Shown: positions 1-50,896, counted from the stretch's first letter. The stretch: 51,208 bases of DNA from Cetobacterium sp. NK01 (GCF_024506395.1 NZ_JANIBO010000008.1:1-51208); one strand, 5' to 3'. Made by a program: numbers and translations. Notes: a model not told the origin generated them from the letters alone.

Positions 1-498
1 ATGTCTAAAAAAAGAATAAAAATAATGGTATCTAAACTTATACTAGATATTCTGGATAGAGATGCCAAGCATTTTAAAATTACTAGAGAAAAACTTTGTA
101 ATACAATTTTAATAACATTCTCTATTAGAAAAACACATGAAATAATTAGAGAAGAATTTGATGAAAAAACCTATCTTCAATTTACATTAAGTCAATCTAC
201 AGCAGAATATTACAATTTTATTACTAATGGAATTTCAGACGAACCAAATTTTATTAGAAGTATTTTTACCACTTATTGTCATTTAAATCCTTTTTATAGA
301 GAAATTATTCTCTTTAGAGATAAACTCATAGTTTTAAAAGATTATTGCTCAAAAAAGGAGAAAATTCATATTTCAATAGAAAATAAACTGGAAAAAGTAA
401 CTATAGAAGAAATAAGAAGATGCCAGATTACCGATTATGTAAAACTTATTACAACTAAAGGGGAGTTTTATATGAACGAGTTAAGAATCATATTTTAG
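1..498 (+). CDS. Hypothetical protein, possible ribbon-helix-helix-like N-terminus
   Basis: This 165-residue protein is not recognised with confidence. Its first 40 residues alternate a short beta-prone stretch (KRIKIMVSK) with two amphipathic helices, which loosely resembles a ribbon-helix-helix DNA-binding fold. That is inference from pattern only. The rest is charged and rich in isoleucine, with no membrane segment or catalytic motif. The ATG lies at base 1. Its ribosome binding site (AAGGGGAG, 51196-51203) and a possible promoter lie at the far end of the window, which supports a circular molecule and a complete gene rather than a truncated one. A plasmid regulator is possible but unproven. 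Confidence 0.6.
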   Translation: MSKKRIKIMVSKLILDILDRDAKHFKITREKLCNTILITFSIRKTHEIIREEFDEKTYLQFTLSQSTAEYYNFITNGISDEPNFIRSIFTTYCHLNPFYREIILFRDKLIVLKDYCSKKEKIHISIENKLEKVTIEEIRRCQITDYVKLITTKGEFYMNELRIIF

Positions 499-30055: not shown

Positions 30056-30073
30056 AATTACACTCCTTTTTTC

Positions 30074-31675
30074 TTAGTTTTTATATAGATAGAATACCTT
30101 AGTTGCAATATTCTCTATAAACATTTTATCGTGTTCAATAAATAAAATAGTTGGTTTGTATTTTAAAATCATCTCCTCCAGCTTCTCTCTCATTTCCATG
30201 TCGATATAGTTAAGAGGTTCATCCCAGACAAGAAGGCTTGATTCTCTGAGCATTGTGCTTGCCAGATTTATCTTTTTCTTTTCCCCTTCGCTGAATAGCT
30301 TTAGTTTCTTGTTTAAAATATCACTGTAAACTCCAAAAGCGGAAAGCAGCTTCCTAAACTCAGCTTCATCTTCTCCAAGCTCCCTGATATATTCCTTCAA
30401 AGTGAGCTCTAAATATGTTGCTTCAAACTCCTGCTCCAGATAGACAACTCTTATATTATTGGGAATGAATATAATTCCAGTATATGGAATTTTCTTTTTT
30501 ATAGCATTTATTATAGAGCTTTTCCCACATCCGTTAGGGCCTTTTAAACAGATACGCTCCCCATTTTTTAAAGTCAGATTGAAGTTTTGTATAACTGTCT
30601 TTTCATCATAGCTTATATTCAGATTATTTACCGTCAAGATTGTATCTGCTTTATTTTTTTCTTTCAGAAATTTAAAAGAATGCTCTTTAGAAAGATCTAA
30701 AAGAAGTTCTTTTCTCTCCTCTATTTCTTTTTCTTTTCTATTCTTGATAGAAACAGCCCTTTTCATTATTCTGGCAGCCTGAGCACCGACATAACCCTTA
30801 TCTACCATAGGAGATAAGTTTCTCTCTGAGGATTTTTGCTTTTCAGAATTGAAGCTCCAGTTTATTTTTTCTTTGGCAGATTCCTGTAAAAATCTGATCT
30901 CTTTTTTCAGCTCCTCATTTTTTTTGATAGCGCTCATTTCCTTGTTCTTCATTTCCTGATAATATGGAAGGAAGCTGGATTTTGTAATGTAAACTTTATT
31001 TTTCTCCATTGCCAGGACATGATCTGAGATTGTATCTAAGAAATTTCTGTCATGAGAAACACAGAGAAATCCGCTTTTGCCATTCAGATACCTGGCTATC
31101 TGCTCCCTGCCTTCTATATCCAAATGATTTGTAGGTTCGTCAATAATGGGATAGCTGTCGTTTTTAAGAAATAATGAGAGCAGCTGAAATTTCGTTTTTT
31201 CTCCGCCGCTTAAAGTATTCCAGGATCTGGAGAGCATTTTTAAATCTAAATTTAACATCTCCATCTCTTTCTCGATTTTATTTTCTACAGTATATCCGCC
31301 GTATTTGCTATAAAGTTCTTCAGCTGTAGAATAGATCTCTATATTTTCTCCCTGAAAATCTTTAAGAGCCTTAGCTATGGTATCCTCCAAATTTTTGAAG
31401 GGAGCTATAAGATTTTTTACAATCTCTAATACGTCTTTTGTTTCATCCGGGATCTCTTTTGGAAAAAAATTGATTTCACACTCTTTGGAGATAGTGCCTT
31501 TACTAGAAACTAGCTCCCCTGACAACAGCTTCATAAATGTGGTTTTTCCTCTTCCATTTTTTCCAAAAATAACAGTTTTCCATTCCGTGTCTAAAATTAG
31601 ATTTAAATCATTAAATATCTCTTTATAAGGATTATCATAGCTGAAATCTAATCTGTTTATTGTTATTTTGCTCAT
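30074..31675 (-). CDS. ABC-F ATPase, likely antibiotic ribosome-protection protein
   Basis: This protein of about 533 residues has two ATP-binding cassettes and no membrane segment, as in ABC-F translation factors that free ribosomes from antibiotics. Cassette 1 has Walker A GKNGRGKTT (about 38-46), signature LSGGEKTKFQLL and Walker B PIIDEPTNHLD. Cassette 2 has Walker A GPNGCGKSS, signature FSEGEKKKINLA and WDEPLNYID. A charged linker of about 80 residues lies between. The opening MSKITINRLDFSYDN resembles Lsa/Vga-type proteins, which act on lincosamides, pleuromutilins and streptogramin A, but the spectrum cannot be read from sequence. The start at 31675 has GGAGG six bases upstream. The longer frame to 31711 has no such site. 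The leader looks like a drug-responsive attenuator. Confidence 0.88.
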   Translation of the reverse strand: MSKITINRLDFSYDNPYKEIFNDLNLILDTEWKTVIFGKNGRGKTTFMKLLSGELVSSKGTISKECEINFFPKEIPDETKDVLEIVKNLIAPFKNLEDTIAKALKDFQGENIEIYSTAEELYSKYGGYTVENKIEKEMEMLNLDLKMLSRSWNTLSGGEKTKFQLLSLFLKNDSYPIIDEPTNHLDIEGREQIARYLNGKSGFLCVSHDRNFLDTISDHVLAMEKNKVYITKSSFLPYYQEMKNKEMSAIKKNEELKKEIRFLQESAKEKINWSFNSEKQKSSERNLSPMVDKGYVGAQAARIMKRAVSIKNRKEKEIEERKELLLDLSKEHSFKFLKEKNKADTILTVNNLNISYDEKTVIQNFNLTLKNGERICLKGPNGCGKSSIINAIKKKIPYTGIIFIPNNIRVVYLEQEFEATYLELTLKEYIRELGEDEAEFRKLLSAFGVYSDILNKKLKLFSEGEKKKINLASTMLRESSLLVWDEPLNYIDMEMREKLEEMILKYKPTILFIEHDKMFIENIATKVFYLYKN

Positions 31676-31707
31676 CTTTACCTCCAATATTTCTGGCATC
31701 TGGATAA

Positions 31708-31736
31708 ACAAAAAAAGACCACTAGTCAGTAGTCTT
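31708..31736 (-). terminator. Attenuator-type terminator in the ABC-F leader
   Basis: On the minus strand AAGACTACT / AGTGGTCTT around a four-base loop runs into seven T residues, about 33 bases before the ABC-F start. It lies within the transcript, so it would block expression unless antitermination occurs, as known for several antibiotic-resistance ABC-F genes. Confidence 0.7.
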
Positions 31737-31964
31737 CATAATTTTCATATTATAAAATTGTACTCTTACATTGCAATAATAAGACAAGCTGACTTTATGG
31801 TATTGAAAAAAATCCATACGCCCTAAAAATTTAGAGGTATAAAAAATTCAAGGGATTCCTTCCGTAAATCCTATGGTCAGTTTCTTATTCTACAGTTAAG
31901 CAAAAAATTACATTACAAAAAAGTGAAAATTTCACTAGATGCCAAAAATTATATTTAATTTTGA

Positions 31965-31988
31965 TTAATTTTTAGCGTCTATCTTCAT
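31965..31988 (-). CDS. Seven-residue leader peptide of the ABC-F gene
   Basis: ATG AAG ATA GAC GCT AAA AAT TAA follows a near-perfect ribosome binding site (GGAGGTGAAAG) directly downstream of the promoter. It encodes MKIDAKN. A tiny, strongly translated frame ahead of a terminator hairpin is the hallmark of ribosome-mediated attenuation: drug stalling on this peptide would change leader folding and let transcription reach the ABC-F gene. The peptide itself need have no function. Confidence 0.6.
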   Translation of the reverse strand: MKIDAKN

Positions 31989-32010
31989 CTTTCACCTCCA
32001 TTTTTTTTAA

Positions 32011-32039
32011 ATTGTATCATATAAATAGATGATATACAA
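32011..32039 (-). promoter_or_regulatory. Promoter of the ABC-F leader transcript
   Basis: On the minus strand TTGTAT, 17 bp and TACAAT, about 20 bases before the leader ribosome binding site and within 30 bp of the right inverted repeat. Confidence 0.6.
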
Positions 32040-32104
32040 GAACTTAAATCTAAACTTTCTCAGTTTTCAATGATACGATTTCGGGAAAAAAACGGAGCTT
32101 GGCC

Positions 32105-32252
32105 TATAGATGAAGAATCTAAAAAAATAGACAATGTAGTTTCATTACAGTACAAGCAGATCCAGAAGTTAAAGGAATACAAGGAAATACTTATAGATAA
32201 TGCGGTTACAGGAAAAATAAAAGTGGGGGATTATCATGCGAAGCAAGACTAA
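32105..32252 (+). pseudogene. hsdS: HsdS 3' part beyond the transposon
   Basis: The frame reads DEESKKIDNVVSLQYKQIQKLKEYKEIL... and ends in the conserved HsdS tail (DNAVTGKIKVGDY). It joins in frame to the segment that stops at 25566. The stop overlaps the hsdR start by 17 bases, so hsdR was translationally coupled to hsdS before the insertion and may now be poorly expressed, having lost its upstream operon. Confidence 0.88.
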
Positions 32253-35200
32253 CGAACAGGCATTAGAATCAGCAATCCAGAGGGCTCTTACTGGAATTAT
32301 AAGTGAAGAACATGTTGAGGATGAAATAGGAGAGACAAGTTTTTCTTTTGGTGGAAATGGATATCTGCTAGGTTTTCCAAGAGATTTCAACAAGAAATAT
32401 GCAGTAGATGAAGTAAGACTTTGGAATTTCCTTGAGACTACCCATAAAGAAGAACTAGAAAAGCTGAAAAAACATTCGGACTATAAACTTAAAATCCTTG
32501 AAAGACTGGATAGAATTATCAAGAAGGACGGAATTTTAAAAGTTTTGAAAAAGGGTATCCAAATTGACGATGCACACTTTACAATGTTTTATCAGCTACC
32601 ATTGGAAAGTAGTAGTAACAAGGTAAAGGAAAATTTTCAGAAAAATCAGTTCAGTATAACAAGGCAGCTGCAATACAACGAAAAGAACCCTCTTCAGGAA
32701 ATAGATATGGTTCTATTTATTAATGGACTAGCAGTGATTACCATGGAGCTGAAAAATGCTTGGACGGGGCAGACAGCAAGGGTTCATGGAATAAAGCAGT
32801 ATAAGGAAGATAGAGATATAACCCAGCCTCTTCTTAATTTTGGAAGATGTATAGTCCACTTTGCAGTAGATACAGACGAGGTATATATGACTACGAGATT
32901 AGACGAAAAAAAAACCTTCTTTCTGCCCTTCAATAAGGGAAATAACAATGGAAAGGGGAATCCTGTAAATCTCTTTGGACACAGAAGCGATTATCTCTGG
33001 AAAGAGGTTTTAAGCAGAGAGAGCTTAGCAAACATTATCCAGCATTTTGTGACTCTAGAAGGAAAAAACACGGACCCCCTAAGCAAGAAGAGGATAATAT
33101 TTCCGAGATATCATCAGCTGGATGTAGTAAGGAAGCTTCTTGCTGATGTTGGAAAAAATGGAGCAGGACAAACTTATCTTATACAGCATTCTGCAGGTTC
33201 AGGAAAGTCTAATTCTATAACGTGGGCTGCATACCAGTTGATAGAAGCCTACCCAGAGAACATTCAAGTAGTAGAAGGACAATCAGCAGACCAGCCTATA
33301 TTTGACTCGGTCATAGTTGTAACCGATAGAAAACTTTTAGACAAACAACTTAGGGATAACATAAAGGAATTTTCCGAAGTAAAAAATATCGTAGCTCCAG
33401 CTTACTACTCCAAGGATTTGAAAGAGGCACTGGAGAATGGAAAGAAGATAATAATAACCACAATTCAGAAATTTCCATTCATAGTAGATGGTATAGCAGA
33501 TCTGAGTAGCAAAAGATTTGCCGTAATAATAGATGAGGCCCACAGCTCTCAAAGCGGAACTGCTGCCGGAAAGATGAATGAGGCTATGGGAAATTGTCAG
33601 GAAGATGAGAATGAAGAAGATATTCAGGACAAGATTTTAAAAGCTATTCAAGCAAGAAAGATGAAGGGAAATGCTTCATATTTTGCCTTTACAGCCACTC
33701 CAAAAAATACTACGCTGGAAAGATTTGGAAGACAGGACGCAGAAGGAAAATTCAAACCGTTCCATCTATATTCAATGAAGCAGGCGATAGAGGAAGGATT
33801 TATCTTGGATGTGTTAGCTAACTATACAACCTATAGGAGTTACTATGAGATAGAAAAATCAATAACTGAAAATCCTCTCTTCGATTCTAAAAAGGCTCAA
33901 AGAAAGCTGCGTATCTATGTAGAGGCAAATAAAGCTACAATAGGAACCAAGGCTGAAATAATGATGGAGCACTTCATCTCTAAAATCTTCAGCACCAAGA
34001 AGCTGAAGGGCAAGGCTAAAGGAATGGTGGTAACCCAGAATATCGAATCTGCTATAAGGTATTACAAGGCAATAGAAAAATACCTGAAGGAACATGGCAA
34101 TCCATTTAAAGTCGCGATAGCCTTTTCAGGAAAGAAAATAGTGGATGGAATCGAATATACGGAAACTGATATTAACGGTTTTCCTGAAACAGAAACTTCA
34201 AAAGAATTTGACAACGATGACTACAGAATTCTGGTAGTTGCAAACAAATATCTGACTGGCTTTGACCAGCCGAAGCTCTGTGCAATGTATGTGGACAAGA
34301 AACTTCAGGGAGTGTTAGCAGTACAGGCTTTATCAAGGCTTAATCGTTCAGCAAATGATCTTGGCAAGAAGACAGAAGATCTTTTTATTTTGGACTTTTT
34401 CAATACAACAGCTGAAATTAAGGATTCCTTTGATCCCTTCTATACAGCTACATCTTTAAGCGGTGCAACAGATATAAATATTCTTCATGACTTAAAGGAG
34501 AAGCTGGATGAAACAGGAGTGTATGACTGGCATGAAGTTGAAGATTTTATAGAAAAATATTTTAGCGGAGTAGATGCCCAGGAACTAAGCCCTATCATAG
34601 ATTATTCTGCTCAAAGATTTAATGAGGAGTTAGAGCTTGAGGATAAGGAGAAAATAGATTACAAAATAAAGGCCAAGCAATTTGTAAAGATTTACAGTCA
34701 AATGGCATCCATTATACCTTATGAAATTCCAGACTGGGAAAAACTTTTCTGGTTTTTAAAATTCCTAATTCCTAAGTTAAAAGTTAAGACAAGAGAAGAT
34801 GAACTTTTGGATGAGCTTCTGGAGACTGTAGATCTTTCAAGCTATGGATTGGAAAGAACAAAATTAAATGTAACAATTTCTTTGGAGGATGCTGAAGCAG
34901 AAGTAGATCCTCAAAACCCTAATATGAGGGGAGCCCATGGTATGGAGGAGGAAAAGGATCACCTTGATGAAATCATTAAAAACTTCAATGAACGATATTT
35001 TCAAGGATGGAAGGCTACACCTGAAGAGCAGAAAGTAAAATTCGTATCCTTGATGAAAGATATAAAAGAACATAAGGATTATGAAGAGAAGGTTGCTAAA
35101 AACAAGGATACTCAAAATCGAGATTTAGCATTCACAAAAATTTTAGAAGATGTCATGAGAGAACATAGAAGAAAAGAAATTGAGCTTTATAAAAACTTTG

Positions 35201-35286
35201 TAAACGATTCTGTATTCAGGAATGCATTTGAAAATAGTATGAAAAATGCAGTAATGAACGAATTGATATTTAAAGACATAATATAA
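32236..35286 (+). CDS. hsdR: Type I restriction enzyme subunit HsdR
   Basis: This 1016-residue motor and nuclease subunit is intact. The nuclease motif is visible as D157 (EIDMVLF) with ELK at 171-173 (PD-(D/E)XK type). The translocase has Walker A in HSAGSGKS (about 318-325), DEAH (about 433-436), FTATPKNT (motif III), and YLTGFDQPKL and QALSRLNR (motifs V and VI). The C-terminal helical domain contacts HsdM. It would cut DNA far from the unmethylated target after translocation, but needs HsdM and HsdS, both broken here as read. Alternatively it may work with a host type I complex of the same family. Confidence 0.93.
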   Translation: MRSKTNEQALESAIQRALTGIISEEHVEDEIGETSFSFGGNGYLLGFPRDFNKKYAVDEVRLWNFLETTHKEELEKLKKHSDYKLKILERLDRIIKKDGILKVLKKGIQIDDAHFTMFYQLPLESSSNKVKENFQKNQFSITRQLQYNEKNPLQEIDMVLFINGLAVITMELKNAWTGQTARVHGIKQYKEDRDITQPLLNFGRCIVHFAVDTDEVYMTTRLDEKKTFFLPFNKGNNNGKGNPVNLFGHRSDYLWKEVLSRESLANIIQHFVTLEGKNTDPLSKKRIIFPRYHQLDVVRKLLADVGKNGAGQTYLIQHSAGSGKSNSITWAAYQLIEAYPENIQVVEGQSADQPIFDSVIVVTDRKLLDKQLRDNIKEFSEVKNIVAPAYYSKDLKEALENGKKIIITTIQKFPFIVDGIADLSSKRFAVIIDEAHSSQSGTAAGKMNEAMGNCQEDENEEDIQDKILKAIQARKMKGNASYFAFTATPKNTTLERFGRQDAEGKFKPFHLYSMKQAIEEGFILDVLANYTTYRSYYEIEKSITENPLFDSKKAQRKLRIYVEANKATIGTKAEIMMEHFISKIFSTKKLKGKAKGMVVTQNIESAIRYYKAIEKYLKEHGNPFKVAIAFSGKKIVDGIEYTETDINGFPETETSKEFDNDDYRILVVANKYLTGFDQPKLCAMYVDKKLQGVLAVQALSRLNRSANDLGKKTEDLFILDFFNTTAEIKDSFDPFYTATSLSGATDINILHDLKEKLDETGVYDWHEVEDFIEKYFSGVDAQELSPIIDYSAQRFNEELELEDKEKIDYKIKAKQFVKIYSQMASIIPYEIPDWEKLFWFLKFLIPKLKVKTREDELLDELLETVDLSSYGLERTKLNVTISLEDAEAEVDPQNPNMRGAHGMEEEKDHLDEIIKNFNERYFQGWKATPEEQKVKFVSLMKDIKEHKDYEEKVAKNKDTQNRDLAFTKILEDVMREHRRKEIELYKNFVNDSVFRNAFENSMKNAVMNELIFKDII

Positions 35287-35606: not shown

Positions 35607-36212
35607 TTGAATTACCAATATTATATAAAGAATTTTAAAAAATATGTTGAAAACAAGTCCAAATTAAGCGATAAAATGGTTTTTAATAAAGATTTAGAGA
35701 ATGTAAATAATTTTGATACTATTAGTTGGATTATTGTCGGTGATAACCCTGGAACGACAGAGTTCAAAAATCAACAATATTTTTCAGAAGGAGCTGCCGC
35801 TAATAATTTAAGAAAGTTTTTTGATAAAAAATTAAACTTAAAGAAAAATGAAAATTATATTTGTTTAAATAAAACTCCAATTTATTCAGTTAAAACTAAA
35901 GAATTATCTAAAGTAGACCAAAATTTATTAAAAAATAGTTTTTCAACTATGGCTAAACTTATTTTTGACTTACATACATTAAATCCTAAAATAAATGTTT
36001 TAATTGTTGGATTTTCTTCTAAGAGCATAAAACCATTTTTTTCTGAACTTAAAAAACAATATGAAGAAAATGATAATTTAATTAATAATTTGTATGTAGT
36101 AGGTCACTTTTCTTATGGTTGGTTTTTTCGAAAAATTGATATCAAAAAAATTAAAGATGAACAATCTTTCATTACTCAATTAAAAAAAAATCACAATTCT
36201 GTAGAATATTAA
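35607..36212 (+). CDS. Uracil-DNA-glycosylase-superfamily-like protein
   Basis: The 201-residue protein begins at a TTG six bases after GGAGGG. It shows the layout of the UDG superfamily: motif 1 region WIIVGDNPGTTEFKNQQYFS (about 42-61), NYICLNKTPIYS (about 89-100), LIVGFSSKS, and near the end VVGHFSYGWFF (about 163-173), corresponding to the HxS motif 2. These would act on DNA bases, excising uracil or a modified base. It is followed closely by a serine recombinase and a YhcG-like nuclease gene, and it is next to a restriction locus, so a defence role against phages with modified DNA is plausible. The assignment rests on motifs only. Confidence 0.6.
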   Translation: MNYQYYIKNFKKYVENKSKLSDKMVFNKDLENVNNFDTISWIIVGDNPGTTEFKNQQYFSEGAAANNLRKFFDKKLNLKKNENYICLNKTPIYSVKTKELSKVDQNLLKNSFSTMAKLIFDLHTLNPKINVLIVGFSSKSIKPFFSELKKQYEENDNLINNLYVVGHFSYGWFFRKIDIKKIKDEQSFITQLKKNHNSVEY

Positions 36213-36228: not shown

Positions 36229-36798
36229 ATGATAAAGTATTATGTTAGAGTTTCAACCGTTGAGCAAAAATTAGATAGACAGCTTTTAGCTTATGATAAA
36301 GCTGATATTGTTTACAGTGATAAAGTGTCTGGAAAAGATAAAGAAAGACCTCAGTTAAAAATTATGTTGGAGGGATTACAAAAGGGTGATGTAGTAGTTG
36401 TTAAATCTTTAGATAGATTAAGTCGTAGTACAATGGACTTATTAGAAATAACTAAAGAAATTGAGGATAAAGGAGCTACTCTAAAGGTTTTAGATAAAGA
36501 TATTGATACTGGAACAGCTATTGGTAAATTCTTTTTAACTATAATTGGAGCTGTTGCAGAATTAGAAAGAGAAAATATCAATCAAAGAGTTAGAGAAGGT
36601 GTTGCTATTGCTAAGGCTGAAGGAAAATATAAGGGAAGAAAAAAAGGTAGCATTGAATTAAAAGGAGATAGTTTAAATAGATTTAAGATGTTTTATAATA
36701 AGGGATTTAATAAAACTGAATTATCAAAAGAATTTGGAGTTCCAAGAGCTACTATATATAGATGGGAAAAGGTTCTTAAAGAAAGAGGGGAGTTATAA
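36229..36798 (+). CDS. Serine recombinase (resolvase/invertase family)
   Basis: This 189-residue protein has the catalytic serine in YYVRVSTVEQ (about residue 8), SLDRLSRSTMDL, IGAVAELERENI and a C-terminal helix-turn-helix (NKTELSKEFGVPRATIYRW). It is a distinct lineage from the Tn3 resolvase at 28381, less than half identical by eye. No transposase lies beside it. It may act as a plasmid multimer resolvase, or be left over from an element whose end is seen at 37987-38024. The ribosome binding site is AAGGAG. It lies between the UDG-like and YhcG-like genes on the same strand with small gaps. Confidence 0.9.
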   Translation: MIKYYVRVSTVEQKLDRQLLAYDKADIVYSDKVSGKDKERPQLKIMLEGLQKGDVVVVKSLDRLSRSTMDLLEITKEIEDKGATLKVLDKDIDTGTAIGKFFLTIIGAVAELERENINQRVREGVAIAKAEGKYKGRKKGSIELKGDSLNRFKMFYNKGFNKTELSKEFGVPRATIYRWEKVLKERGEL

Positions 36799-36821: not shown

Positions 36822-37862
36822 ATGGAAAATGACGAAATAAAGAATTTAGACATTCAGGGAAATTATAGTTATATCATAAGCTTAATCGAGACTTCAAAAT
36901 CTAGTACTTTAAAAGCCATAAATTCAGAGCTAATAATTCTATATTGGAAAATAGGAGAATATATTCAAAAAGATATTTTAGATAAAGCAGATAAAATATA
37001 TGGTGAAAATATTGTTGTAGAATTATCTAAACGTTTAGCTTTTGAATATGGTAGAGGGTTTAGTAGAAGTAATCTATTAAGGATGATTCAGTTCTATAAG
37101 GCATTTAAAAATTTTAAGAATGTCGCGACACTGTCACGACAATTATCATGGTCACATTTTGTAGAATTAATTAAAATAGAAAATGAATTAAAAAGAGAGT
37201 TTTATATAGCAATGGCTATAAATGAAGGGTGGTCTGTTAGAGTTTTTAAAGAAAGAATTAATTCAATGTTATTTGAGAGAACTGCAATTTCTAAAAAGCC
37301 AGAAGAAACAATAAAAAAAGATTTAGAACTTTTATCTAATCAGAAAATAATGACCGAATCTCTTTTTATTAAAGATCCATATATTTTAGATTTTTTAGGG
37401 CTAGAAAATAGTTATTCTGAAAAAGATTTAGAAAATAGAATCTTACAAGAATTAGAGAAATTTCTTTTAGAATTTGGGAGTGATTTTGCCTTTATGGGAA
37501 GACAAAAAAGAATTCAAATAGGAAATAAAGATTATTATTTAGATCTTCTTTTTTATCACAGAAAAATGAGAAGGTTAGTTTTAATAGAATTAAAGTTAGG
37601 AGAATTTGAACCTCAATATAAAGGACAAGTTGAACTTTATCTTAAGTGGCTAAGTAAGTATGAAAAGCAAGAATTTGAAGAGGAACCTATTGCCATAATA
37701 CTTTGTGCAAGTAAGGATTCAGAAGAGATAGAGCTTTTAGGACTTACAGAAGGGAATATACGAGTTTCTGAATATTTAGCAAGTTTGCCACCTAAAAAAT
37801 TATTAGAAGAAAAATTGCATAAAGCTATATTAGAAGCTAAGGAATTAGCTATTCAAAAATAA
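36822..37862 (+). CDS. YhcG-family PD-(D/E)XK nuclease-like protein (DUF1016)
   Basis: This 346-residue protein follows the YhcG/DUF1016 plan. The N-terminal helical domain has YWKIGEYIQ, FSRSNLLRMIQFYKAF and LSWSHFVELIKI. A linker ending in FLIKDPYILDFL follows, then the nuclease domain with FMGRQKRIQIGNKDYYLDLLFYHR and VLIELKLGEF, giving the D...ExK signature (about residues 236-257). The ribosome binding site is GGAG. Proteins of this family have been connected to recombination of mobile DNA and found beside restriction systems, but their exact activity is unsettled. The neighbouring UDG-like and recombinase genes suggest an accessory DNA-processing or defence cassette. Confidence 0.88.
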   Translation: MENDEIKNLDIQGNYSYIISLIETSKSSTLKAINSELIILYWKIGEYIQKDILDKADKIYGENIVVELSKRLAFEYGRGFSRSNLLRMIQFYKAFKNFKNVATLSRQLSWSHFVELIKIENELKREFYIAMAINEGWSVRVFKERINSMLFERTAISKKPEETIKKDLELLSNQKIMTESLFIKDPYILDFLGLENSYSEKDLENRILQELEKFLLEFGSDFAFMGRQKRIQIGNKDYYLDLLFYHRKMRRLVLIELKLGEFEPQYKGQVELYLKWLSKYEKQEFEEEPIAIILCASKDSEEIELLGLTEGNIRVSEYLASLPPKKLLEEKLHKAILEAKELAIQK

Positions 37863-40618: not shown

Positions 40619-41686
40619 TCACTCCCTTGAAATATCGAATAATTTACTTTTTAAAGATCTAAGACTTTCTAGCCAATTAACTATATTTATTGCTGTTTTA
40701 TAAACATCTATTACTCCAATTTCATTAATTACTAGATAATCTTTTATTATTGCTTGTGTCATCCAAGTTCCACGAGCAAATCTTGAAGGTTTTACTATTG
40801 TATCTCCATAATTTTCTGTTAATATATCTAACCCCTTATACAATAAAGAAATATCTTTATTGTCACTCCAAACTTTAAACACAAATTTCAAATTCTCTTG
40901 AATGGTTTTTTCTGGTATTGAATTAGATTCTAGCTGCAAATAATAACCATAATTATCAAAATTAAGGACATTTTCAAAATAGTAACACATAAATCCACCT
41001 TTTTGATTAGCTGTATATTGCCAATTAAAATCAATATCTTTAGGCATTATTCCTTCAGATCTTAATTTAACAAAAGCTTTATCTAATTCATTATAAAATC
41101 CAATAACTTCATTCCAAGTAAAGGTATCTTTTCTTAAATCTTTACTTTTAAAAGAATCTCTTTCATTTTGAATAGCTTTTAAATTTAATAGGTAATCTTG
41201 AAATATGATATTACTTCCTTCATACTTATCAAATATTTCTATAATCTCTTCTCTTAAAAAAGTTCTTATATTCTTTCCTTCTTGGATCAATGAAATATTT
41301 TTATAGCTTTCGTCTCCAGTTTTATAGTAAATACAGTACACATTTTCTTCTTTAGCTTGGTAATGTTTAATAATTTTTTCTCTATAGCCATTCATCTGAT
41401 TTTCTCTTTCAGATGTAAAGGTTTTATCTTCAATTATTATATAAATTTTATCATTTAATATTAATAAAATATCTATTGCCATAAATTGCTTTTTTACTTC
41501 TAAACTATTTATTTCAAGGTTTTTAATTTCTATTTTTTCTAAAATTTCACTAATAACATATCTTGCAAATTTATTTTCTAACGGATATTTATCTTTAAAT
41601 AGGTCATTATAATAATCTAATACATAGCATATAAGAGCATCTTGTGATAGCTCACTTGTAGCAAATTTAAAAATATTTGGTCTCAT
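40619..41686 (-). CDS. PD-(D/E)XK nuclease-like protein
   Basis: This protein of about 355 residues has a nuclease signature: D72 in FMAIDILLILNDK and E86/K88 in IYIIIEDKTFT, then QMNGYREKI. The N-terminus (MRPNIFKFATSELSQDALICYVLDY) is typical of a group of PD-(D/E)XK-like proteins found in defence islands. The C-terminal 170 residues are of unknown fold. I start it at 41686 because GGGAGG precedes that ATG, whereas the longer frame to 41707 lacks a site. It is divergent from the BrxL-like ATPase gene, with a shared 220-bp promoter region that contains the dyad TTACATTG / CAATGTAA (41719-41753). Confidence 0.75.
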   Translation of the reverse strand: MRPNIFKFATSELSQDALICYVLDYYNDLFKDKYPLENKFARYVISEILEKIEIKNLEINSLEVKKQFMAIDILLILNDKIYIIIEDKTFTSERENQMNGYREKIIKHYQAKEENVYCIYYKTGDESYKNISLIQEGKNIRTFLREEIIEIFDKYEGSNIIFQDYLLNLKAIQNERDSFKSKDLRKDTFTWNEVIGFYNELDKAFVKLRSEGIMPKDIDFNWQYTANQKGGFMCYYFENVLNFDNYGYYLQLESNSIPEKTIQENLKFVFKVWSDNKDISLLYKGLDILTENYGDTIVKPSRFARGTWMTQAIIKDYLVINEIGVIDVYKTAINIVNWLESLRSLKSKLFDISRE

Positions 41687-41718
41687 ACACCCTCCCATAT
41701 TAATCACAGCTAATTTTC

Positions 41719-41753
41719 TTACATTGTATTCTTCTAAAATAGCAATGTAAAAT
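41719..41753. promoter_or_regulatory. Operator-like dyad between divergent nuclease and BrxL-like genes
   Basis: TTACATTG and CAATGTAA are separated by about 18 bases. A second imperfect dyad (CGTTT / AAACG) lies at about 41779-41802. Their place between divergent genes suits coordinated control. Confidence 0.4.
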
Positions 41754-41905
41754 ATATAATTTGAATGGTCTATACTAGCGTTTCAAGAGCTACTCAAACG
41801 TTAAATCTCTATTTGATAGAATATCTTGATTTCATTTGATATATTATGATACTCTTTATTTAAAAGCTTTTGCTTTATAACCCTACACAAGGAGAGGATT
41901 TAAGT

Positions 41906-43651
41906 ATGCCAAACTATACTTTTGCATTTAACCCTAATAAACATTCTATTACCCAAAAGATACAACTAGATCGTTTATCAACATATTATGATTTAGAAGA
42001 TTCTATTAATGAAGAATTTTCTCTTGAGGATTGGAAAAAACTAGTTCAAAATTACTCTGTTAGTGAAAGAGTCAATTTAATTTTAAGAACATTTGGATAT
42101 GAACCGTTCAATCTTTCTTTTATGGAGAAGATAATACTATTAATTAGAATAATTCCATTTTGCCAGAAATCATTTAACTTTATTGAATTAGGAGATAAGA
42201 GCACTGGAAAATCTTCTACATATCAAAAATTTTCAAGAGAAGCATATTGTCCAACAGGTTCATTAACAGAATCCAAGCTATTTGGAGATGCTAAATCTAA
42301 GAATGATTTAGGAATTTTAAGTAATTACAAAGTTGTAGTATTTGATGAAATTTCTGAGGGAAGTTCAATATCACCAGAGTTAGCAACAAAACTACGTAGC
42401 TTTTTAGCTGATGGAAATTCTGGAAGAAATGGAGCTAATATAATAAATTCTGTTTCAATTGGTTTTGTAGGTAACCTTAAAGAAGAACAATTAAATCTAT
42501 TAACTAATCCTAATTATAAAATAGATTTATTTACTTTCTTTCCTGAAGCCTTTAGACAGTCACCATTTAAAGATAGAATAAGTTTTGTTATTCCTGGATG
42601 GCATCTTAAATTTGAACAATTTCATTATTTAGAAAAGTATTCAGAAAAATCTTTGAATATAAATTACTTCATACATATTTTAAGTTTACTTAGAGAAATA
42701 TCTTTAGAAGTTAAAACTATAGCTAATCCAAAAGATACAGTTAGATCTATTTCTCACTATAATGCAACTCTTGAAGGTCTTATAAAATTGATTTATCCAA
42801 ACGAAGATTATACAGAGTTTGAATTAAATGCTATAAAGCACATTGCTTTATTTGGGAGAAGCTTCTTAGGAAATGAAACTTTCAATCTTTTTAATAGTGA
42901 CGTTAAAAAATTAGCTTTAAAATTTATTGAAGAAGATATTAGACATATTGCTAATAAAACACTAAATGAAGTTGATAAAGTTTATTTCTATGAAAATAGA
43001 TTACATTTAAAATTCTTTGATGAAGGCAAAATATATAAGATTCCTTTAAATAGGTTTGGTAGAATTGAAAATGAACAAGAAAATGAATTATACTCAAACT
43101 TAAAAGAAGATGAAAAAAAATACTTTATACCTATCTTAAAAAACAATGAAAACTATATTATTCAACAGTATTCAGAACCTTATAATAATTATAGATTATT
43201 TAAAAATTGGAAAGATATTTTAAATACATCTATTAGTCTTAATCTTCCAGAAGAGTTTAAAAACTTAGAATCAACACTAAACTCTATACTAAAGTACCAA
43301 GAAGGACAAATAAATTCATTAAAACAAACTGTAAATGAACAATCTAAAGTTATAAAACTCTTACAAAATGAGATTTCAAATTACAATAAAAAGCTAGAAG
43401 TTTATTTAAGAGAAATAAAATTAGATTTACTTCAACATGAGTATTTTATATTTAAAAGTAGTGATGAAACTTATCCAAAACAGTATTCGAATTTCTTTAT
43501 TCCTAATAATATAGATAGAATTAATATTGGAAATAAATTAGAAAAATTTAAAGATGATTTTGATAAAAATTTATGTATTATAAATTATACAAAAGATAAG
43601 GAGGAGTTAATTAGGATATTACCTAAATTAGCGATAAAATATGACAATTAA
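41906..43651 (+). CDS. BrxL-like AAA+ ATPase
   Basis: The 581-residue protein starts at 41906, seven bases after GGAGAGG; the longer frame from 41870 has no site. Residues 90-190 match the BREX protein BrxL. They show FIELGDKSTGKSSTY with Walker A (96-103), then YCPTGSLTESKLFG, the Walker B VVVFDEIS (143-150), LRSFLADGNSGRNGANI, and SIGFVGNL. BrxL forms AAA+ rings that act on DNA in phage exclusion. The usual C-terminal Lon-type protease-like domain is not seen. Instead there is a coiled-coil-like segment (about 450-510). No other brx genes are in the window. It overlaps the next gene by 11 bases, so the two act together. A minimal defence system is a reasonable inference. Confidence 0.72.
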   Translation: MPNYTFAFNPNKHSITQKIQLDRLSTYYDLEDSINEEFSLEDWKKLVQNYSVSERVNLILRTFGYEPFNLSFMEKIILLIRIIPFCQKSFNFIELGDKSTGKSSTYQKFSREAYCPTGSLTESKLFGDAKSKNDLGILSNYKVVVFDEISEGSSISPELATKLRSFLADGNSGRNGANIINSVSIGFVGNLKEEQLNLLTNPNYKIDLFTFFPEAFRQSPFKDRISFVIPGWHLKFEQFHYLEKYSEKSLNINYFIHILSLLREISLEVKTIANPKDTVRSISHYNATLEGLIKLIYPNEDYTEFELNAIKHIALFGRSFLGNETFNLFNSDVKKLALKFIEEDIRHIANKTLNEVDKVYFYENRLHLKFFDEGKIYKIPLNRFGRIENEQENELYSNLKEDEKKYFIPILKNNENYIIQQYSEPYNNYRLFKNWKDILNTSISLNLPEEFKNLESTLNSILKYQEGQINSLKQTVNEQSKVIKLLQNEISNYNKKLEVYLREIKLDLLQHEYFIFKSSDETYPKQYSNFFIPNNIDRINIGNKLEKFKDDFDKNLCIINYTKDKEELIRILPKLAIKYDN

Positions 43652-44399
43652 TCAATTAACTAATATTTTAACTAATATTTCCGAAAAAGATAGAAGCAAA
43701 GATTTTATAAAATCTGTATTGGAGGAAAAATTAGATAAATCCAATCTTAATTTTGAGCAAAACCACTTAGAGAAAAATAGAGTTATATTCATTTATAATG
43801 GTTATAAATATAAAATTGCTATCAATTCTAAAGGTCTTTTATCTAATTTTATTGAATGTAAAAATTTTAGTCTTATTAAATCCGATTCTTTAAAAGAATA
43901 TAATAAATTTATTTCAGAGTTAGAACTATTTGAACTTGATAATAAAAAATTTCAAAATTGTAATGATAGTTATATTAGTAGTTATTATTATAGAAAGCAA
44001 AATGACTTTAGACTTATCAGATCAACAATATCCAATATTACTACATTTAATTCAATAAAATATGACTCTAATTTATATTTTTATTTTAAAGTTTTTATTG
44101 AATTAACTAAAAAATATATATCAATAGATTCTATGAATATTTATGATTTTGAATTTAAAGAACCTTTCTTTAAATTCAATAATTTTTTAAATATTTATCC
44201 TAAATCTAAAACTAAAAATATTAAACTTGACTTTAACTTAGAAGCTTTTCTTGATAATCCTAATGTTAATTTTTTTAATGAAAATGAATATAAAATTATT
44301 TTAAATAACTATGAAAGTACTTTTAATAATCTAAATAAATATAATAACTATGAATATGATTCTAGCGATGATGACGATGATGACGATGATTGGAGTTAA
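43641..44399 (+). CDS. Unknown protein with an aspartate-rich tail, partner of the BrxL-like ATPase
   Basis: This 252-residue protein of unknown family has very high Asn, Lys, Phe and Tyr content. Its first 60 residues are helical, followed by beta-like segments (RVIFIYNGYKYKIAINSKG). The extreme C-terminus is YDSSDDDDDDDDWS, eight aspartates then Trp-Ser. Acidic tails with a terminal aromatic occur in ssDNA-binding proteins and DNA mimics, where they dock partners or occupy DNA-binding grooves. Start codon and ribosome binding site are inside the end of the ATPase gene, with an 11-bp overlap, so translation is coupled. I infer a regulatory or adaptor subunit. No enzymatic motif is visible. 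Confidence 0.65.
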   Translation: MTINQLTNILTNISEKDRSKDFIKSVLEEKLDKSNLNFEQNHLEKNRVIFIYNGYKYKIAINSKGLLSNFIECKNFSLIKSDSLKEYNKFISELELFELDNKKFQNCNDSYISSYYYRKQNDFRLIRSTISNITTFNSIKYDSNLYFYFKVFIELTKKYISIDSMNIYDFEFKEPFFKFNNFLNIYPKSKTKNIKLDFNLEAFLDNPNVNFFNENEYKIILNNYESTFNNLNKYNNYEYDSSDDDDDDDDWS

Positions 44400-44481: not shown

Positions 44482-45123
44482 ATGGATGTAAAAACATTAA
44501 AAGAAAGATTAGAAAAACCATTCTCTGATGAAGAACTAGAATTTAGAGTTGGTGCTACTAATTCGGATAAAACAAAAGGTCTAGCTTTAGCCTATGTTCA
44601 AGCAAGAGCAATTCAAAATAGACTTGATGATACTGTGGGGTTAAATAACTGGAGAGTATCTTACAAAGAAATAACTGGGGGTTTCATTGCAACTCTAGAA
44701 ATAAGAATTGATAGTGAATGGATAGCAAAAGAAGATGGATCGGGAGTTACAGACTATGAGTCGATTAAAGGTGGAATCAGTTGTGCTTTTAAAAGAGTTG
44801 CTTCCGTTTGGGGAATAGGTCGGTATCTATATGAAGTTGAAAATAGATGGTATCCTATAGAACAAAAAGGAAAGAGTTACATATTTAAAGATACTCCAAC
44901 ATTAAATTTAAGTAAGAATATTTCTAATGAAATTAAAGATGATCTGCCAAAAGATGAAAAAGCCAAAAGAATAGAAATAACTTTTGGAAAATACAAAGGA
45001 AAAACTTTAGGAGATATTCTTAAAGAAAACAAGGATTACTTAATTTATCTGATAACAAATAGCAAAGATGTAAAAATAGTAAATGCGTGCAAATATTTAA
45101 TGAAAAATAATAAAATAGCATAA
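44482..45123 (+). CDS. Rad52/Rad22-like ssDNA-annealing protein with ExoX-type C-terminal module
   Basis: The 213-residue protein begins at the ATG at 44482, preceded by AAGGAGGTC; the longer frame from 44425 has no site. Residues 1-125 match the Rad52 family core: LKERLEKPFSDEELEFRVGAT, LAYVQARAIQNRLDDTVGLNNW and GISCAFKRVASVWGIGRYLY. Such proteins anneal complementary single strands and are typical of phage and plasmid recombination. The last 50 residues (ITFGKYKGKTLGDILKENKDYLIYLI) resemble the small C-terminal module of ExoX-like nucleases (FGKYKG...YL), without nuclease residues. The gene is the first of the plus-strand DNA-metabolism run, ending in a strong terminator. Confidence 0.85.
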   Translation: MDVKTLKERLEKPFSDEELEFRVGATNSDKTKGLALAYVQARAIQNRLDDTVGLNNWRVSYKEITGGFIATLEIRIDSEWIAKEDGSGVTDYESIKGGISCAFKRVASVWGIGRYLYEVENRWYPIEQKGKSYIFKDTPTLNLSKNISNEIKDDLPKDEKAKRIEITFGKYKGKTLGDILKENKDYLIYLITNSKDVKIVNACKYLMKNNKIA

Positions 45124-45133
45124 TAAACAATAG

Positions 45134-45160
45134 ACCTCTGGAGATTTCCAGAGGTTTTTA
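45134..45160 (+). terminator. Terminator after the Rad52-like gene
   Basis: ACCTCTGGA / TCCAGAGGT with a four-base loop and TTTTTAT. Confidence 0.88.
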
Positions 45161-45176
45161 TATTTAGGAGGAAATT

Positions 45177-45671
45177 ATGAAAGCTTATGAAATTGTAAAC
45201 GGAATGATAGATACGTTAGATATATTCTTAGAGTCAGATCAGAATGAGAGTGATAGAGAAAACTATAATTATATTATGGAGTTTTTACAAGAAGAACTAG
45301 AAAATAAAAGTAGTAACATTATCAAATATATTAGGAATATTTCTTTAGAAGTTGAAATACTATCACAAGAAGAAGATAGATTAGAAAAGCTTAGAAAACA
45401 AAAAGAAAAAAAAGTTAATAACTTGAAAAAGTATCTTACAGACATTCTTTTAAATTTAGATAAAAATAAAATTGAAACAGAATTAGGAAACTTAGGACTT
45501 AGAAAAAGTGTTTCAGTTGCAATAGATAATTTAGATCTTATACCTAAAAAATATATTCAAAAGAAAATAGAATTAGTACCAGACAAAAGGACGTTGTCAG
45601 AACTCTTAAAACAGGGTAAAAACATAAAAGGAGTACATTTAGAAGACAAATACTCGTTACAAATAAGATAG
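45177..45671 (+). CDS. Siphovirus Gp157-like protein
   Basis: This 164-residue helical protein follows the Gp157 family pattern: a long coiled-coil (about residues 35-90, with EVEILSQEEDRLEKLRKQKEKKVNNLKKYL), then GNLGLRKSVSVAIDNLDLIPKKYIQ and LKQGKNIKGVHLED. Members occur next to ssDNA-binding and annealing genes in phages, and some have been linked to phage resistance, but the mechanism is unknown. Here it lies directly downstream of a Rad52-like gene, the same neighbourhood as in phages. AGGAGG precedes the start. It suggests the segment came from a phage or phage-plasmid recombination module. Confidence 0.82.
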   Translation: MKAYEIVNGMIDTLDIFLESDQNESDRENYNYIMEFLQEELENKSSNIIKYIRNISLEVEILSQEEDRLEKLRKQKEKKVNNLKKYLTDILLNLDKNKIETELGNLGLRKSVSVAIDNLDLIPKKYIQKKIELVPDKRTLSELLKQGKNIKGVHLEDKYSLQIR

Positions 45672-47627: not shown

Positions 47628-48089
47628 ATGAAATATTATTTACATAGAGCAGTAGCAAATAAACTAAAAGGCACTAAGAAGTTTAAAATAACAGAATATA
47701 CAATTCAGGAATTTGAATCATTTAAGAAAGCTTTACAAGCGTTTATGAAAGATTTTCTAATTGAAGGAGACAGAGACCAAAAGGGATTTGCTACTGAAAA
47801 GAAAATAGCTATGAGAATAACTACAACAAAGAAAAAGATTAGAGCAAGACTTTATAAACTCCCATTGAGTCAATACCAAGCTTTAGCACTAAATCCACCT
47901 ACAAGCAAATACAGATGTTGTAGAGAATATTTAGAAACAGATCCAGAGTATGGAATGGTTCATGACATATTTTTAATACTTGAAACTAATTATCAGAAAG
48001 CTTGTGATGACTTTTTGTATGAGATGAAAAAATATGAAGATAAAAGAAATTCATTTTTCATAGAAATAAAGGAGGATGAAAATGTTTGA
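47628..48089 (+). CDS. Hypothetical protein
   Basis: This 153-residue protein is basic in its middle part (EKKIAMRITTTKKKIRARLYKLP) and acidic at the end, with one CC pair (YRCCREYLE). No family is recognised. AGGAGG lies just before the ATG. Its last codons overlap the start of the methylase-like gene by 8 bp, so it is likely an accessory protein of that gene, perhaps in DNA binding. No catalytic motif is seen. Confidence 0.6.
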   Translation: MKYYLHRAVANKLKGTKKFKITEYTIQEFESFKKALQAFMKDFLIEGDRDQKGFATEKKIAMRITTTKKKIRARLYKLPLSQYQALALNPPTSKYRCCREYLETDPEYGMVHDIFLILETNYQKACDDFLYEMKKYEDKRNSFFIEIKEDENV

Positions 48090-49479
48090 TAAGAATTTCT
48101 ATCCCACACCATATGAAATAGGATTAAAAATGGTATCAGGACTTAATTTAATGGGTATGAATATATTAGAACCAAGTGCAGGAAAAGGTGATTTACTTAG
48201 TGTTGTAAATCAAAAATCAGCTAAAGTATTTTGTATTGAAAAGAGTCCAGAATTACAAAGTATATTGCGAGAAAAGAAATATCCAATATTAGGAGATGAT
48301 TTTCTAAAATATAAACCAGATCATATTTTTGATTTAATCCTTATGAATCCACCATTTGATAATGGAGTTAAGCATTTGCTTAAAGCTTGGGATATATCAG
48401 AGGAAGGAACATACATAAGATGTCTTTTAAATGCTGAGAGTATAAGAAATCCTTGTACAAAAGAGAGAAAGCTTCTAATAGATATATTAGAGAGAAATAA
48501 TGCTGATATAGAATATCTTGGAAACTGTTTTAAAGATGCTGAAAGAAAAACTAATGTAGAAGTTGCATTAATTAAATTGCAAAATAAAACTAAGGGTAAG
48601 AAGTTTGAATTTAAATTTGATGGTTTCTCTAAAGAAGATGATATTGATTTTCAAGAGCTTAATATGAACCAACTAGCTAAAGTAGATGTATTACAAAATT
48701 TAGAAGATAAATATACAGCAGTAAAAGAGATTGTAGGGGAATATCTAACTCTAAAAAGCAAACTAGAATATTTCTTAGATGGAATCATAGAAAAAGTTTA
48801 TGTAAAAAGCCTATTAGAAAAGAATTCTAGTAATAGTAAAAAAGAGTATGAAGAGGTTCTTGAAAAAGTAAGAACATCATTTTGGAAGCTAGTATTTGAT
48901 AAAACTAAATTAGAAGAAAAAATGACATCACAGGTTAAAAAGGATTTCTTTGATAATAAGCAGGAGTATAGCAACTTGCCTTTTACAGTAGATAATATAA
49001 ATAAATTATTGGAAATTCTAATCCAGAATTCTAAACAGATTTTTCAGAATTGTATAGAAGAGAGCTTTGATTATTTAACTCGATATTATCCAGAGAATCG
49101 AGTTCATATAGAGGGATGGAAAACTAATGAAAGATGGAAAGTTGGAAAGAAGTTTATCCTTCCAGATATGATTGATACATTCTATTTGAAATACGATAAA
49201 GGCAGCAACAGATTACAAAAGCTTAGTTATCTAAAAAGAGATAAGCTAAGAGATTTAGAAAAAGTAATCTGTAATTTAATTGGAAAAGATATCGGTAGAA
49301 TTCTAACCATAGAATCAAAAGTTGATATGGGAGTAAATTTTGGTGAATGGAATAACTCAGAATTCTTTAAGTTTAAAATATTTAAAAAGGGAACTATTCA
49401 TTTTGAATTTCTAGATGAAAAGATCTGGGATGAATTTAATAGAGTAGCTTGTGAAGGTAAAAAATGGTTAGGGTATTAA
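48082..49479 (+). CDS. N6-adenine methylase-like protein with DUF4942 C-terminus
   Basis: This protein of about 465 residues has a typical Rossmann methylase start: FYPTPYEIGLKMV, EPSAGKGDLL (30-39), and the catalytic LMNPPF (88-92). The C-terminal 130 residues (WKVGKKFILPDMI and EFFKFKIFKKGTIHFEFLD) resemble DUF4942, which is often joined to such methylases on plasmids and prophages. It is predicted to methylate DNA adenine. Possible roles are protecting the plasmid from host restriction or regulating its transfer. GGAGG lies six bases before the chosen ATG (48082). The in-frame ATG at 48076 abuts it. No partner endonuclease is next to it, so it may be an orphan methylase. Confidence 0.82.
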   Translation: MFDKNFYPTPYEIGLKMVSGLNLMGMNILEPSAGKGDLLSVVNQKSAKVFCIEKSPELQSILREKKYPILGDDFLKYKPDHIFDLILMNPPFDNGVKHLLKAWDISEEGTYIRCLLNAESIRNPCTKERKLLIDILERNNADIEYLGNCFKDAERKTNVEVALIKLQNKTKGKKFEFKFDGFSKEDDIDFQELNMNQLAKVDVLQNLEDKYTAVKEIVGEYLTLKSKLEYFLDGIIEKVYVKSLLEKNSSNSKKEYEEVLEKVRTSFWKLVFDKTKLEEKMTSQVKKDFFDNKQEYSNLPFTVDNINKLLEILIQNSKQIFQNCIEESFDYLTRYYPENRVHIEGWKTNERWKVGKKFILPDMIDTFYLKYDKGSNRLQKLSYLKRDKLRDLEKVICNLIGKDIGRILTIESKVDMGVNFGEWNNSEFFKFKIFKKGTIHFEFLDEKIWDEFNRVACEGKKWLGY

Positions 49480-49510: not shown

Positions 49511-50038
49511 ATGAAGAAAATATTGAGATTTCTAAAGTGTAAAGACATAGATGAAGTAGTAACTAAAATAAAGAGTTATGAGATAAGTGAAGAGCTAGAA
49601 CAGTTTAAGGAACTTATGACTACAATAAGCAAAGGAAACATCGGAAAGAAAGACCTTGCAACAGTAAAGGGCAAAACTGAACTTCTTAATTATCTAAGAA
49701 GTGATATAGGATTCAAAAATACAGAGGAGTTTAAGGTTATATACTTAAGCTCCTCTAATCGTTTAATTGGGGAAGAAACACTATTTAGAGGAACTATAGA
49801 CAGAAGTGTAGTCTATCCTCGACTGATTGTAGAGAGAGCCTTAAAATACCCAACTAAGGGCATTATATTCGCTCATAATCATCCTAGTGGAGATTTGAAG
49901 CCAAGTAGAAAAGACATTGAACTAACACATGAGCTAAAAGACCTGTTAGAAATATTAGACATTAAATTACTGGATCACATCATTATAAGTGATGAGGATT
50001 ATTTTAGCTTTTATGATAATGGGCTTATTGAACATTAA
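49511..50038 (+). CDS. radC: RadC/JAB-domain protein
   Basis: This 175-residue JAB/MPN-fold protein has the metal-binding signature of the family, seen as GIIFAHNHPSGDLKPSRKDIELTHEL (HxHPSGD with acidic residue) preceded by RLIVERALKYPTKG and followed by LDIKLLDHIIISDEDYFSF. The standard N-terminal helix-hairpin-helix of chromosomal RadC is shortened. These proteins are common on plasmids and prophages near antirestriction and methylase genes. Their activity is unresolved. GGAGGATAT precedes the ATG. It is followed by a 14-bp gap and another small gene, so the group 49511-51039 looks like one transcript. Confidence 0.88.
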   Translation: MKKILRFLKCKDIDEVVTKIKSYEISEELEQFKELMTTISKGNIGKKDLATVKGKTELLNYLRSDIGFKNTEEFKVIYLSSSNRLIGEETLFRGTIDRSVVYPRLIVERALKYPTKGIIFAHNHPSGDLKPSRKDIELTHELKDLLEILDIKLLDHIIISDEDYFSFYDNGLIEH

Positions 50039-50052: not shown

Positions 50053-50271
50053 ATGGATAAAGTTATATCAGCAGAAAGTATTAATTGCTTAGGAACTAAA
50101 GATATTCAGGTAGACATTACAAAGGATGGATTTATAGTAAATATAATAGCTTGGGGAGAATGGTATATAGAAGAAGCTAAGGATATAAAGGAATTGGAAG
50201 AACTGTTAAATGAGTTTAATGTACAGCAATACACAATAAATGAAATAAAGGAGAGGATAGCAAATGCCTAA
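50053..50271 (+). CDS. Small hypothetical protein
   Basis: This 72-residue acidic protein has pattern MDKVISAESINCLGTKDIQVDITKDGFIVNIIAW, with four predicted beta-strands and a C-terminal helix (DIKELEELLNEFN). It overlaps the next gene by 8 bp and has AAGGAGATG upstream. Not recognised. Likely an accessory of the RadC/Api92-like gene group. Confidence 0.6.
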   Translation: MDKVISAESINCLGTKDIQVDITKDGFIVNIIAWGEWYIEEAKDIKELEELLNEFNVQQYTINEIKERIANA

Positions 50272-50896
50272 CTACTGTTTTAATAGAATCAGATTGAATG
50301 TAACACAAGAGGAACTAGAGAGAATAAAAGAAAAGGTTATGTCTAAAGATGAATTTGAAGATGAATATTTTGATTTTAATAAGGTTATTAAAAGACCTCG
50401 AAATATTCTATTAAGAGCTTTTAAAACCAATACTTTAGAAGCTTTCAGTAAATATTACTATGAGAATCCAGATAAACTAGAGCAAAAGATATTAGATGAA
50501 ATAATTAAGAATAAAATTCTGAAGGTCAGAATAGATGGTAAGTTAGTTAATATAGATCGTTATGTGGATGAGAAATATTCATCAGAGGAACTTAAAGATT
50601 ATAATGGTGAGATGTTAATACTGTGGTATGACTGGTGTACTGAAAATTGGGGGACTAAATGGAACTCTCTATTTTCCTCTATCAATAAAGATGAGTTAAT
50701 ATTTAGTACTGCATGGAACCCAATATCATTAGAGCTATTTGAAAGTTTTATTAATATCTGCAAAGAAGTAATTGGAGATAAAGCAAATAATATTTGGCTA
50801 TATTATGAAGAGTGTGGAATAGGAATCTTTGGAAGATATTTTATCCAAGATGGAGAACTTTATTATGATGAGGATTATAGAGAAGAGGTGGCTTAA
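50264..50896 (+). CDS. Api92/YubB-like protein with ferredoxin-like domain
   Basis: This 210-residue protein resembles the plasmid and phage Api92/YubB group. It starts MPNYCFNRIRLNVTQEELERIKE, a well-known beta-alpha-beta opening (MPNWCxNxLxV form), and ends with YYEECGIGIFGRYFIQDGE, a beta-rich close. The middle has ILWYDWCTENWGTKWN, a tryptophan-rich stretch conserved in the group. The function is unknown. It appears in the leading region of plasmids and next to RadC and methylase genes, as here. GGAGAGG precedes the start inside the preceding gene. Confidence 0.8.
   Translation: MPNYCFNRIRLNVTQEELERIKEKVMSKDEFEDEYFDFNKVIKRPRNILLRAFKTNTLEAFSKYYYENPDKLEQKILDEIIKNKILKVRIDGKLVNIDRYVDEKYSSEELKDYNGEMLILWYDWCTENWGTKWNSLFSSINKDELIFSTAWNPISLELFESFINICKEVIGDKANNIWLYYEECGIGIFGRYFIQDGELYYDEDYREEVA

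Follow-up and report, generated by a model that had tools for sequence, protein, structure and literature searches.

A BREX-independent BrxL-family ATPase and its overlapping partner gene in Cetobacterium: a possible replication or maintenance module of mobile islands

What does an ATPase of the BrxL family do where the other BREX genes are missing? The question is raised by positions 40619-44399 of a 51,208-bp contig of Cetobacterium sp. NK01 (GCF_024506395.1, NZ_JANIBO010000008.1:1-51208), analysed here in its entire length and referred to as the window. In this region the gene of a BrxL-family AAA+ ATPase (41906..43651, plus strand, 581 aa) overlaps by 11 nt a gene encoding a small protein with an acidic C-terminus (the partner; 43641..44399, plus strand, 252 aa), and lies divergent from a PD-(D/E)XK_4-type nuclease gene (40619..41686, minus strand). 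A preliminary description of this DNA had grouped the three genes into a candidate minimal defence system. The analysis reported here assigns the ATPase to a clade found beside site-specific recombinases in Fusobacteriota islands and favours, tentatively and with slightly less than even confidence, the reading by analogy that ATPase and partner serve such mobile islands as a helicase module for replication or maintenance, the nuclease being judged a neighbour outside the system.

The ATPase matches (i) Pfam PF13337 (E=5e-51, 173.8 bits for a cut-off of 25) over residues 48-331 only, residue 48 being counted on the 593-aa open reading frame that begins at TTG 41870; (ii) PADLOC BrxL (8e-42), one model of which reaches weakly to residue 524; and (iii) the PDB entry of BrxL, 8EMC, matched at 2.5e-37 with a four-member clade profile. 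The start codon is very probably ATG 41906, because the ribosome-binding site AAGGAGAGG lies ahead of it, a correction of the TTG start given in the preliminary description; that of the nuclease is probably ATG 41686. Compared with BrxL of BREX type 1 and type 4 (PF13337, TIGR02688, PDB codes 8EMC and 8EMH), the protein shares the AAA+ core with its Walker A (GDKSTGKSS) and Walker B (VVVFDEIS) motifs, over a match of about 270-280 residues, but differs in several respects. Neither the N-terminal BrxL DNA-binding region nor the Lon-like/HKD C-terminal domain is detected in the Pfam, PADLOC and PDB alignments; the scores to TIGR02688 (165.8 bits) and TIGR02653 (121.8 bits) fall under the respective equivalog cut-offs of 329.3 and 628.25; and the core is followed by a region common to the island relatives and then by a predicted coiled-coil-like C-terminus. 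In addition, PglZ, BrxC and PglX do not accompany it, and its relatives adjoin recombinases. The earlier account of a BrxL core devoid of its usual C-terminal domain and of other BREX genes is confirmed: no BREX gene occurs in the window and no PglZ in its genome, where two BREX genomes (G024 and G075) matched as positive controls. PglZ is likewise lacking in nine of the ten carrier genomes, the sole match being a 262-aa frame on another contig.

Members of the clade were found with the four-member profile in 10 of 98 Fusobacteriota species genomes, the BrxLs of BREX loci forming a second tier matched in the AAA+ core only. A further profile, A8, recovered eight loci including the window at E<=2.2e-38, seven of these being its training set and the eighth nearly identical to one training member; it matched no long BREX BrxL, giving only partial matches of at most 27 bits to two BREX-type loci, and recognised the clade-specific region that follows the AAA+ core in the window ATPase as well. 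With a clade alignment, a scan of genome contigs picked up the copy in Cetobacterium together with two loci of ordinary BREX type. Scans of viral contigs disclosed no relatives, and a prophage origin is therefore not favoured. All nine aligned members retain the lysine and serine of Walker A and the glutamate of Walker B. No description of the clade was found in the open-licence papers searched.

At the nine other loci, found through the ATPase, so that its presence there is by construction, the genes follow one another in the order of a site-specific recombinase, in some cases a helix-turn-helix (HTH) gene, the ATPase, a small partner gene, a divergent gene of 417-644 aa here called geneX, and a backbone with Gp157, Rad52, RadC and, in some, ArdC genes. 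The recombinase adjoins the ATPase on the same strand at every one of them (9/9) and is either a serine recombinase (L015, L017, L054 and L056) or a tyrosine recombinase (L016, L053, L055, L057 and L058), the latter separated from the ATPase by an HTH gene of 59-69 aa. In all other intact copies a small gene abuts or overlaps the start of the ATPase gene, with gaps of 0 or 1 nt or overlaps of 11-25 nt. GeneX, usually divergent from partner and ATPase, leads into the Rad52-Gp157-RadC-type region; in L015, L016, L017 and L054-L058 it matches no database entry, and its one conserved position holds at least several alleles that look unrelated. L053 and L055 are cut off by the ends of their contigs and have their backbones on others (L081 and L082), which is why no geneX is visible for L053. 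In L057 (8698-10865) both ATPase and integrase are frameshifted, and the near-identical element L058 has both intact. The islands lie at the transfer-messenger RNA (tmRNA) gene (L017 and L054) or next to tRNA genes (L015 and L056); in L054 the 13-bp TCATCTCCACCAA, the 3' end of the tmRNA, is repeated identically at both ends, about 24 kb apart. The conserved neighbours of the clade are a recombinase, a small abutting gene and a Rad52-Gp157-RadC-type region, and not the nuclease that the preliminary description had included.

The constant company of a recombinase on the same strand, with a Rad52-like gene nearby, might also be accounted for if the ATPase assisted recombination or excision itself, as an AAA+ helper that remodels integrase complexes or Rad52 filaments. 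This explanation appears improbable, in that one ATPase clade stands next to both serine and tyrosine recombinases, which have no common mechanism or cofactor, and in that no integrase stands beside the window copy.

Pairwise comparison of the elements indicates that recombinase, ATPase, partner and geneX are a block exchanged separately from the backbone. Between L054 and L058 four backbone genes are 90-97% identical, whereas the block genes share 20-27%; between L017 and L054, on the other hand, the block is 71-77% identical and the backbone genes 38-64%, with ArdC at 75%. The window follows the first pattern when compared with L015 and L016, its backbone being 71-97% identical and its ATPase 24-26%. 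The Rad52-Gp157 backbone lies beside the ATPase in the window (44482-45671) and at the other loci wherever the contig allows. Joint exchange of neighbouring genes is by itself no proof of joint function; strongly diverged, exchanged alleles are compatible with specificity for an origin or for a partner.

How such a cassette might work is suggested by the positional pattern, the intact Walker motifs, the likeness of BrxL to MCM and a parallel in staphylococci, on which the preference for replication or maintenance is based. The AAA+ core of BrxL is structurally nearest to MCM (PMC10164562), and MCM helicases are frequent replication proteins of integrated elements in archaea (PMC6563490). In islands of the staphylococcal cassette chromosome (SCC), a small single-stranded DNA-binding or poorly conserved protein and a ring-forming MCM-like helicase precede the recombinases, and related islands sit in ssrA, the tmRNA gene (PMC7581432, PMC10061031), as some clade islands do at theirs. 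The LP1413-Cch-CcrAB and CCPol-MP-Cch2-CcrC operons thus resemble the nine other loci in having a small, poorly conserved gene and a ring ATPase directly upstream of the recombinase. They differ in that Cch is a DUF927 protein and the window ATPase matches BrxL_ATPase; in that the clade cassette has no recognised polymerase, carries the extra divergent geneX and is associated with tyrosine as well as serine recombinases; and in that the window has no adjacent recombinase and shows the ATPase-partner order reversed. No homology to Cch or Cch2 was found, the PDB sequence search with the clade profile returning only BrxL above noise.

By this analogy, ATPase and partner would represent a plasmid-borne allele of a cassette from a recombinase-bearing family of Fusobacteriota islands. 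The ATPase, as a BREX-independent, MCM-like ring of the BrxL family, would load on the DNA of its own element and act as initiator or helicase for replication or maintenance following excision or transfer, the small partner serving perhaps as loader or single-strand-binding helper; the module would parallel, without homology, the staphylococcal LP1413-Cch-Ccr and CCPol-MP-Cch2 operons. It is conceivable, with still lower confidence, that BrxL-type rings also serve apart from BREX, as initiator helicases in a family of mobile islands with exchangeable recombinase-ATPase-partner-geneX cassettes, so that the BrxL of BREX could be a replication helicase turned weapon. The action of BrxL in BREX is unsettled; from its likeness to MCM helicases its discoverers reportedly suggested an interference with the initiation of phage replication. 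For study, the BREX-free clade provides the ring in a small form of two or three genes and, tied as it is to integration and excision genes, gives a way to ask whether that ring originated as replication machinery of mobile elements.

No relatives of the partner were found in Pfam, PADLOC, NCBIfam, PHROGs or the PDB, nor in plasmids or a further 95 genomes from the order, so that the preliminary description was right about a BREX-less BrxL-type ATPase with an overlapping partner named in no library. The acidic tail that it had noticed is indeed present (DSSDDDDDDDDWS, 44358..44396, plus strand), encoded by a short GAY repeat (tandem repeat at 44366-44390), and is not seen in partners at the other ATPase loci. 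Several candidate relationships were rejected. The best hhalign comparison of the window partner with other partners or geneX proteins (E=8e-4, geneX of L017) is not significant among 253 comparisons, and a match in G061 (E=0.06) proved to be queA and was set down to chance. A kinase-catalytic-loop-like stretch common to the partners of L015 and of L016/L053 (shuffle p of about 0.007 or less) had suggested a pseudokinase; this reading was dropped, the stretch being weak in the L055 partner (p 0.08) and missing from the window partner (p 0.98).

Several observations weigh against the replication or maintenance module. Regarding the proteins, no helicase activity has been demonstrated for BrxL (PMC10164562), the P-loop glycine is altered in L017, L054 and L055, and the structure predictions were too poor to be used, with a predicted local distance difference test score (pLDDT) of 45 for the ATPase and, with AlphaFold2, of 41 for the partner. 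Regarding the cassette, no primase or polymerase is recognised in it, its conserved divergent geneX stays unexplained, and repeats clearly above the level of shuffles are lacking from 17 of 18 intergenic regions, iteron-like ones next to the ATPase or within the divergent gap being confined to one AT-rich case in L056. Regarding the window, the plasmid comes with Rep and ParA/ParB-like genes of its own, neither recombinase nor geneX adjoins the ATPase, the partner lies 3' of the ATPase where the other loci have it ahead, and it shows no sequence similarity to their partners. Finally, a search that began from the backbone, with seven training rows taken from the ATPase loci and the window, added to its training loci three ATPase-bearing genomes (G008, G023 and G076), but also four in Fusobacteriota whose backbone is related but more distant and which have no ATPase (G082, G014, G077 and G016), at least some of them with plasmid Rep/Par or type I restriction-modification genes nearby. 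Because of these four, the cassette is typical of one lineage of elements and not universal.

The lack of an adjacent recombinase and geneX and the reversed order invite the question of whether the window holds only a decaying, non-functional remnant, a cassette that was captured on a plasmid, lost its recombinase and geneX and has no role any longer. The composition of the partner (G+C 0.187, compared with 0.287 for the window) and its repeat-encoded tail would agree with decay, and no closely related plasmids by which to gauge purifying selection were found. Both frames are nevertheless open and overlapping, the Walker motifs are intact and the ribosome-binding site is good, which makes a remnant rather unlikely.

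A serious rival, somewhat less probable than the favoured reading, is element-borne defence or exclusion, a minimal BrxL-type defence with the nuclease left out. The BrxL-like ring would stall the replication of invading DNA (phage, plasmids or sibling islands), and the fast-evolving partner, joined in the islands by geneX, would act as sensor or loader. The preliminary label of defence was taken from the BrxL resemblance alone, and replication or maintenance of mobile elements is suggested no less strongly by the conserved neighbours. The family likeness to a phage-restriction ATPase nonetheless counts in its favour. The authors of the SCC primase survey considered defence as an alternative for their own modules (PMC10061031). 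Rapid evolution of partner and geneX, and the swapping of allelic cassettes between near-identical backbones, would suit an exclusion system, and other defence genes reside in the islands (a PycTM-like 2TM effector, E=1.9e-21, and a DRT UG24-like segment) and in the window (YhcG/PDC-S02 and type I restriction-modification genes). However, in the one delimited island the cargo lies at the far end and the ATPase with the recombinase; the slot is always occupied by the same ATPase clade, not by unrelated systems; PADLOC holds no BREX-free version; and no clade member was detected away from the backbone in the 98 Fusobacteriota genomes. A second phylum, sampled with 392 genomes, yielded none whatever, although this is a thin coverage outside Fusobacteriota.

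The original proposal, in which nuclease, ATPase and partner form a single defence system under shared divergent control, is largely refuted already and retains a very small probability. In its support, the genes are adjacent and divergent, as first described, and the nuclease matches PF14281 (E=1.1e-6) and PDC-S26 (E=1.4e-10) with the D-x(14)-E-x-K motif of the PD-(D/E)XK core intact. The match to the PDC-S26/PDDEXK_4 profile is nevertheless partial (about 95 of 415 positions), and the gene occurs alone and unlinked to the ATPase: homologues 79-80% identical in G036 and 75% identical in G010 reside in genomes without the clade ATPase, amid neighbours that vary from locus to locus, an outcome that the preliminary description had itself named as refuting and that applies here to this gene. 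Conversely, the nuclease is missing from each of the nine further ATPase loci, and the three genes were found together in no other genome searched. The inverted repeats once thought to control both genes are at chance level: the best of them, TTACATTG...CAATGTAA, finds an equal or a better in 219 of 300 dinucleotide shuffles, and 84 of 300 reach the number of 8-bp inverted repeats seen in the divergent gap. The dyads were consequently rejected as operators.

Downstream of the partner, the backbone of the window begins with a Rad52/22-like annealing protein with an ExoX-like C-terminus (44482..45123; PF04098 1e-13, PF20600 3.7e-10), which shares 71-74% identity with its Rad52 counterparts in the nearest islands, and continues on the same plus strand with (i) a Gp157-like gene (45177..45671; PF05565 3.5e-34), 90-93% identical in L015, L016 and L081; (ii) a 153-aa gene (47628..48089), 79-95% identical in the same three; (iii) a DUF4942/methyltransferase-like gene (48076..49479; PF13708 1.3e-33), 94% identical in L015; (iv) a RadC-like gene (49511..50038; PF04002 7e-42), 97% identical in L016; and (v) a 210-aa gene (50264..50896), 90% identical in L015. 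A 165-aa gene at the opposite end (1..498, plus strand) has a counterpart of 79% identity in L015, where neighbour and spacing also agree. The window is one entire contig and very probably a circular plasmid, because the gene starting at base 1 finds its ribosome-binding site in the last bases of the other end, in the junction sequence, and because the resulting order of 210-aa gene, about 310 bp and 165-aa gene is the uninterrupted order in L015.

Several further features of the window and the islands were recorded. Two replication-initiator-like genes, one with Rep3_C, lie at 9923-13659 (with ParA/ParB-like genes among them) and at 17213-18133, which suggests a cointegrate. Type I restriction-modification genes, assigned from sequence only, extend over 18332-35286 and are split by a Tn3-type transposase/resolvase (25627-28950), an SDR gene and an ABC-F gene preceding the large HsdR-like gene (32236-35286). 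A separate defence-like cluster comprises a YhcG/DUF1016 PD-(D/E)XK protein (36822-37862; PADLOC PDC-S02, E=1.5e-119), a resolvase (36229-36798) and a uracil-DNA-glycosylase-like gene (35607-36212). The tmRNA-integrated island L071 carries at 9396-12133 a 346-aa cyclase-like gene, a 140-aa gene and the PycTM/2TM effector (E=1.9e-21 to PycTM), adjoined by an ImmA/IrrE-like gene, and may be a Pycsar-like locus. An adhesin-like open reading frame of 1828 aa occupies 1305-6791 of the window; close to its N-terminus a unit of about 50 residues recurs eight times in tandem, nearly unchanged, and its C-terminus resembles that of autotransporters. A relative flanks the island in L016. A family of 344-386 aa proteins beginning MDTI, with the motif RVDIPFTY and no Pfam match, is present in the window (13930-14964) and at the far end of islands (L069:2286-3335, L070:12452-13612, L071:5101-6150 and L072:5945-6991), and is possibly a replication initiator or relaxase.

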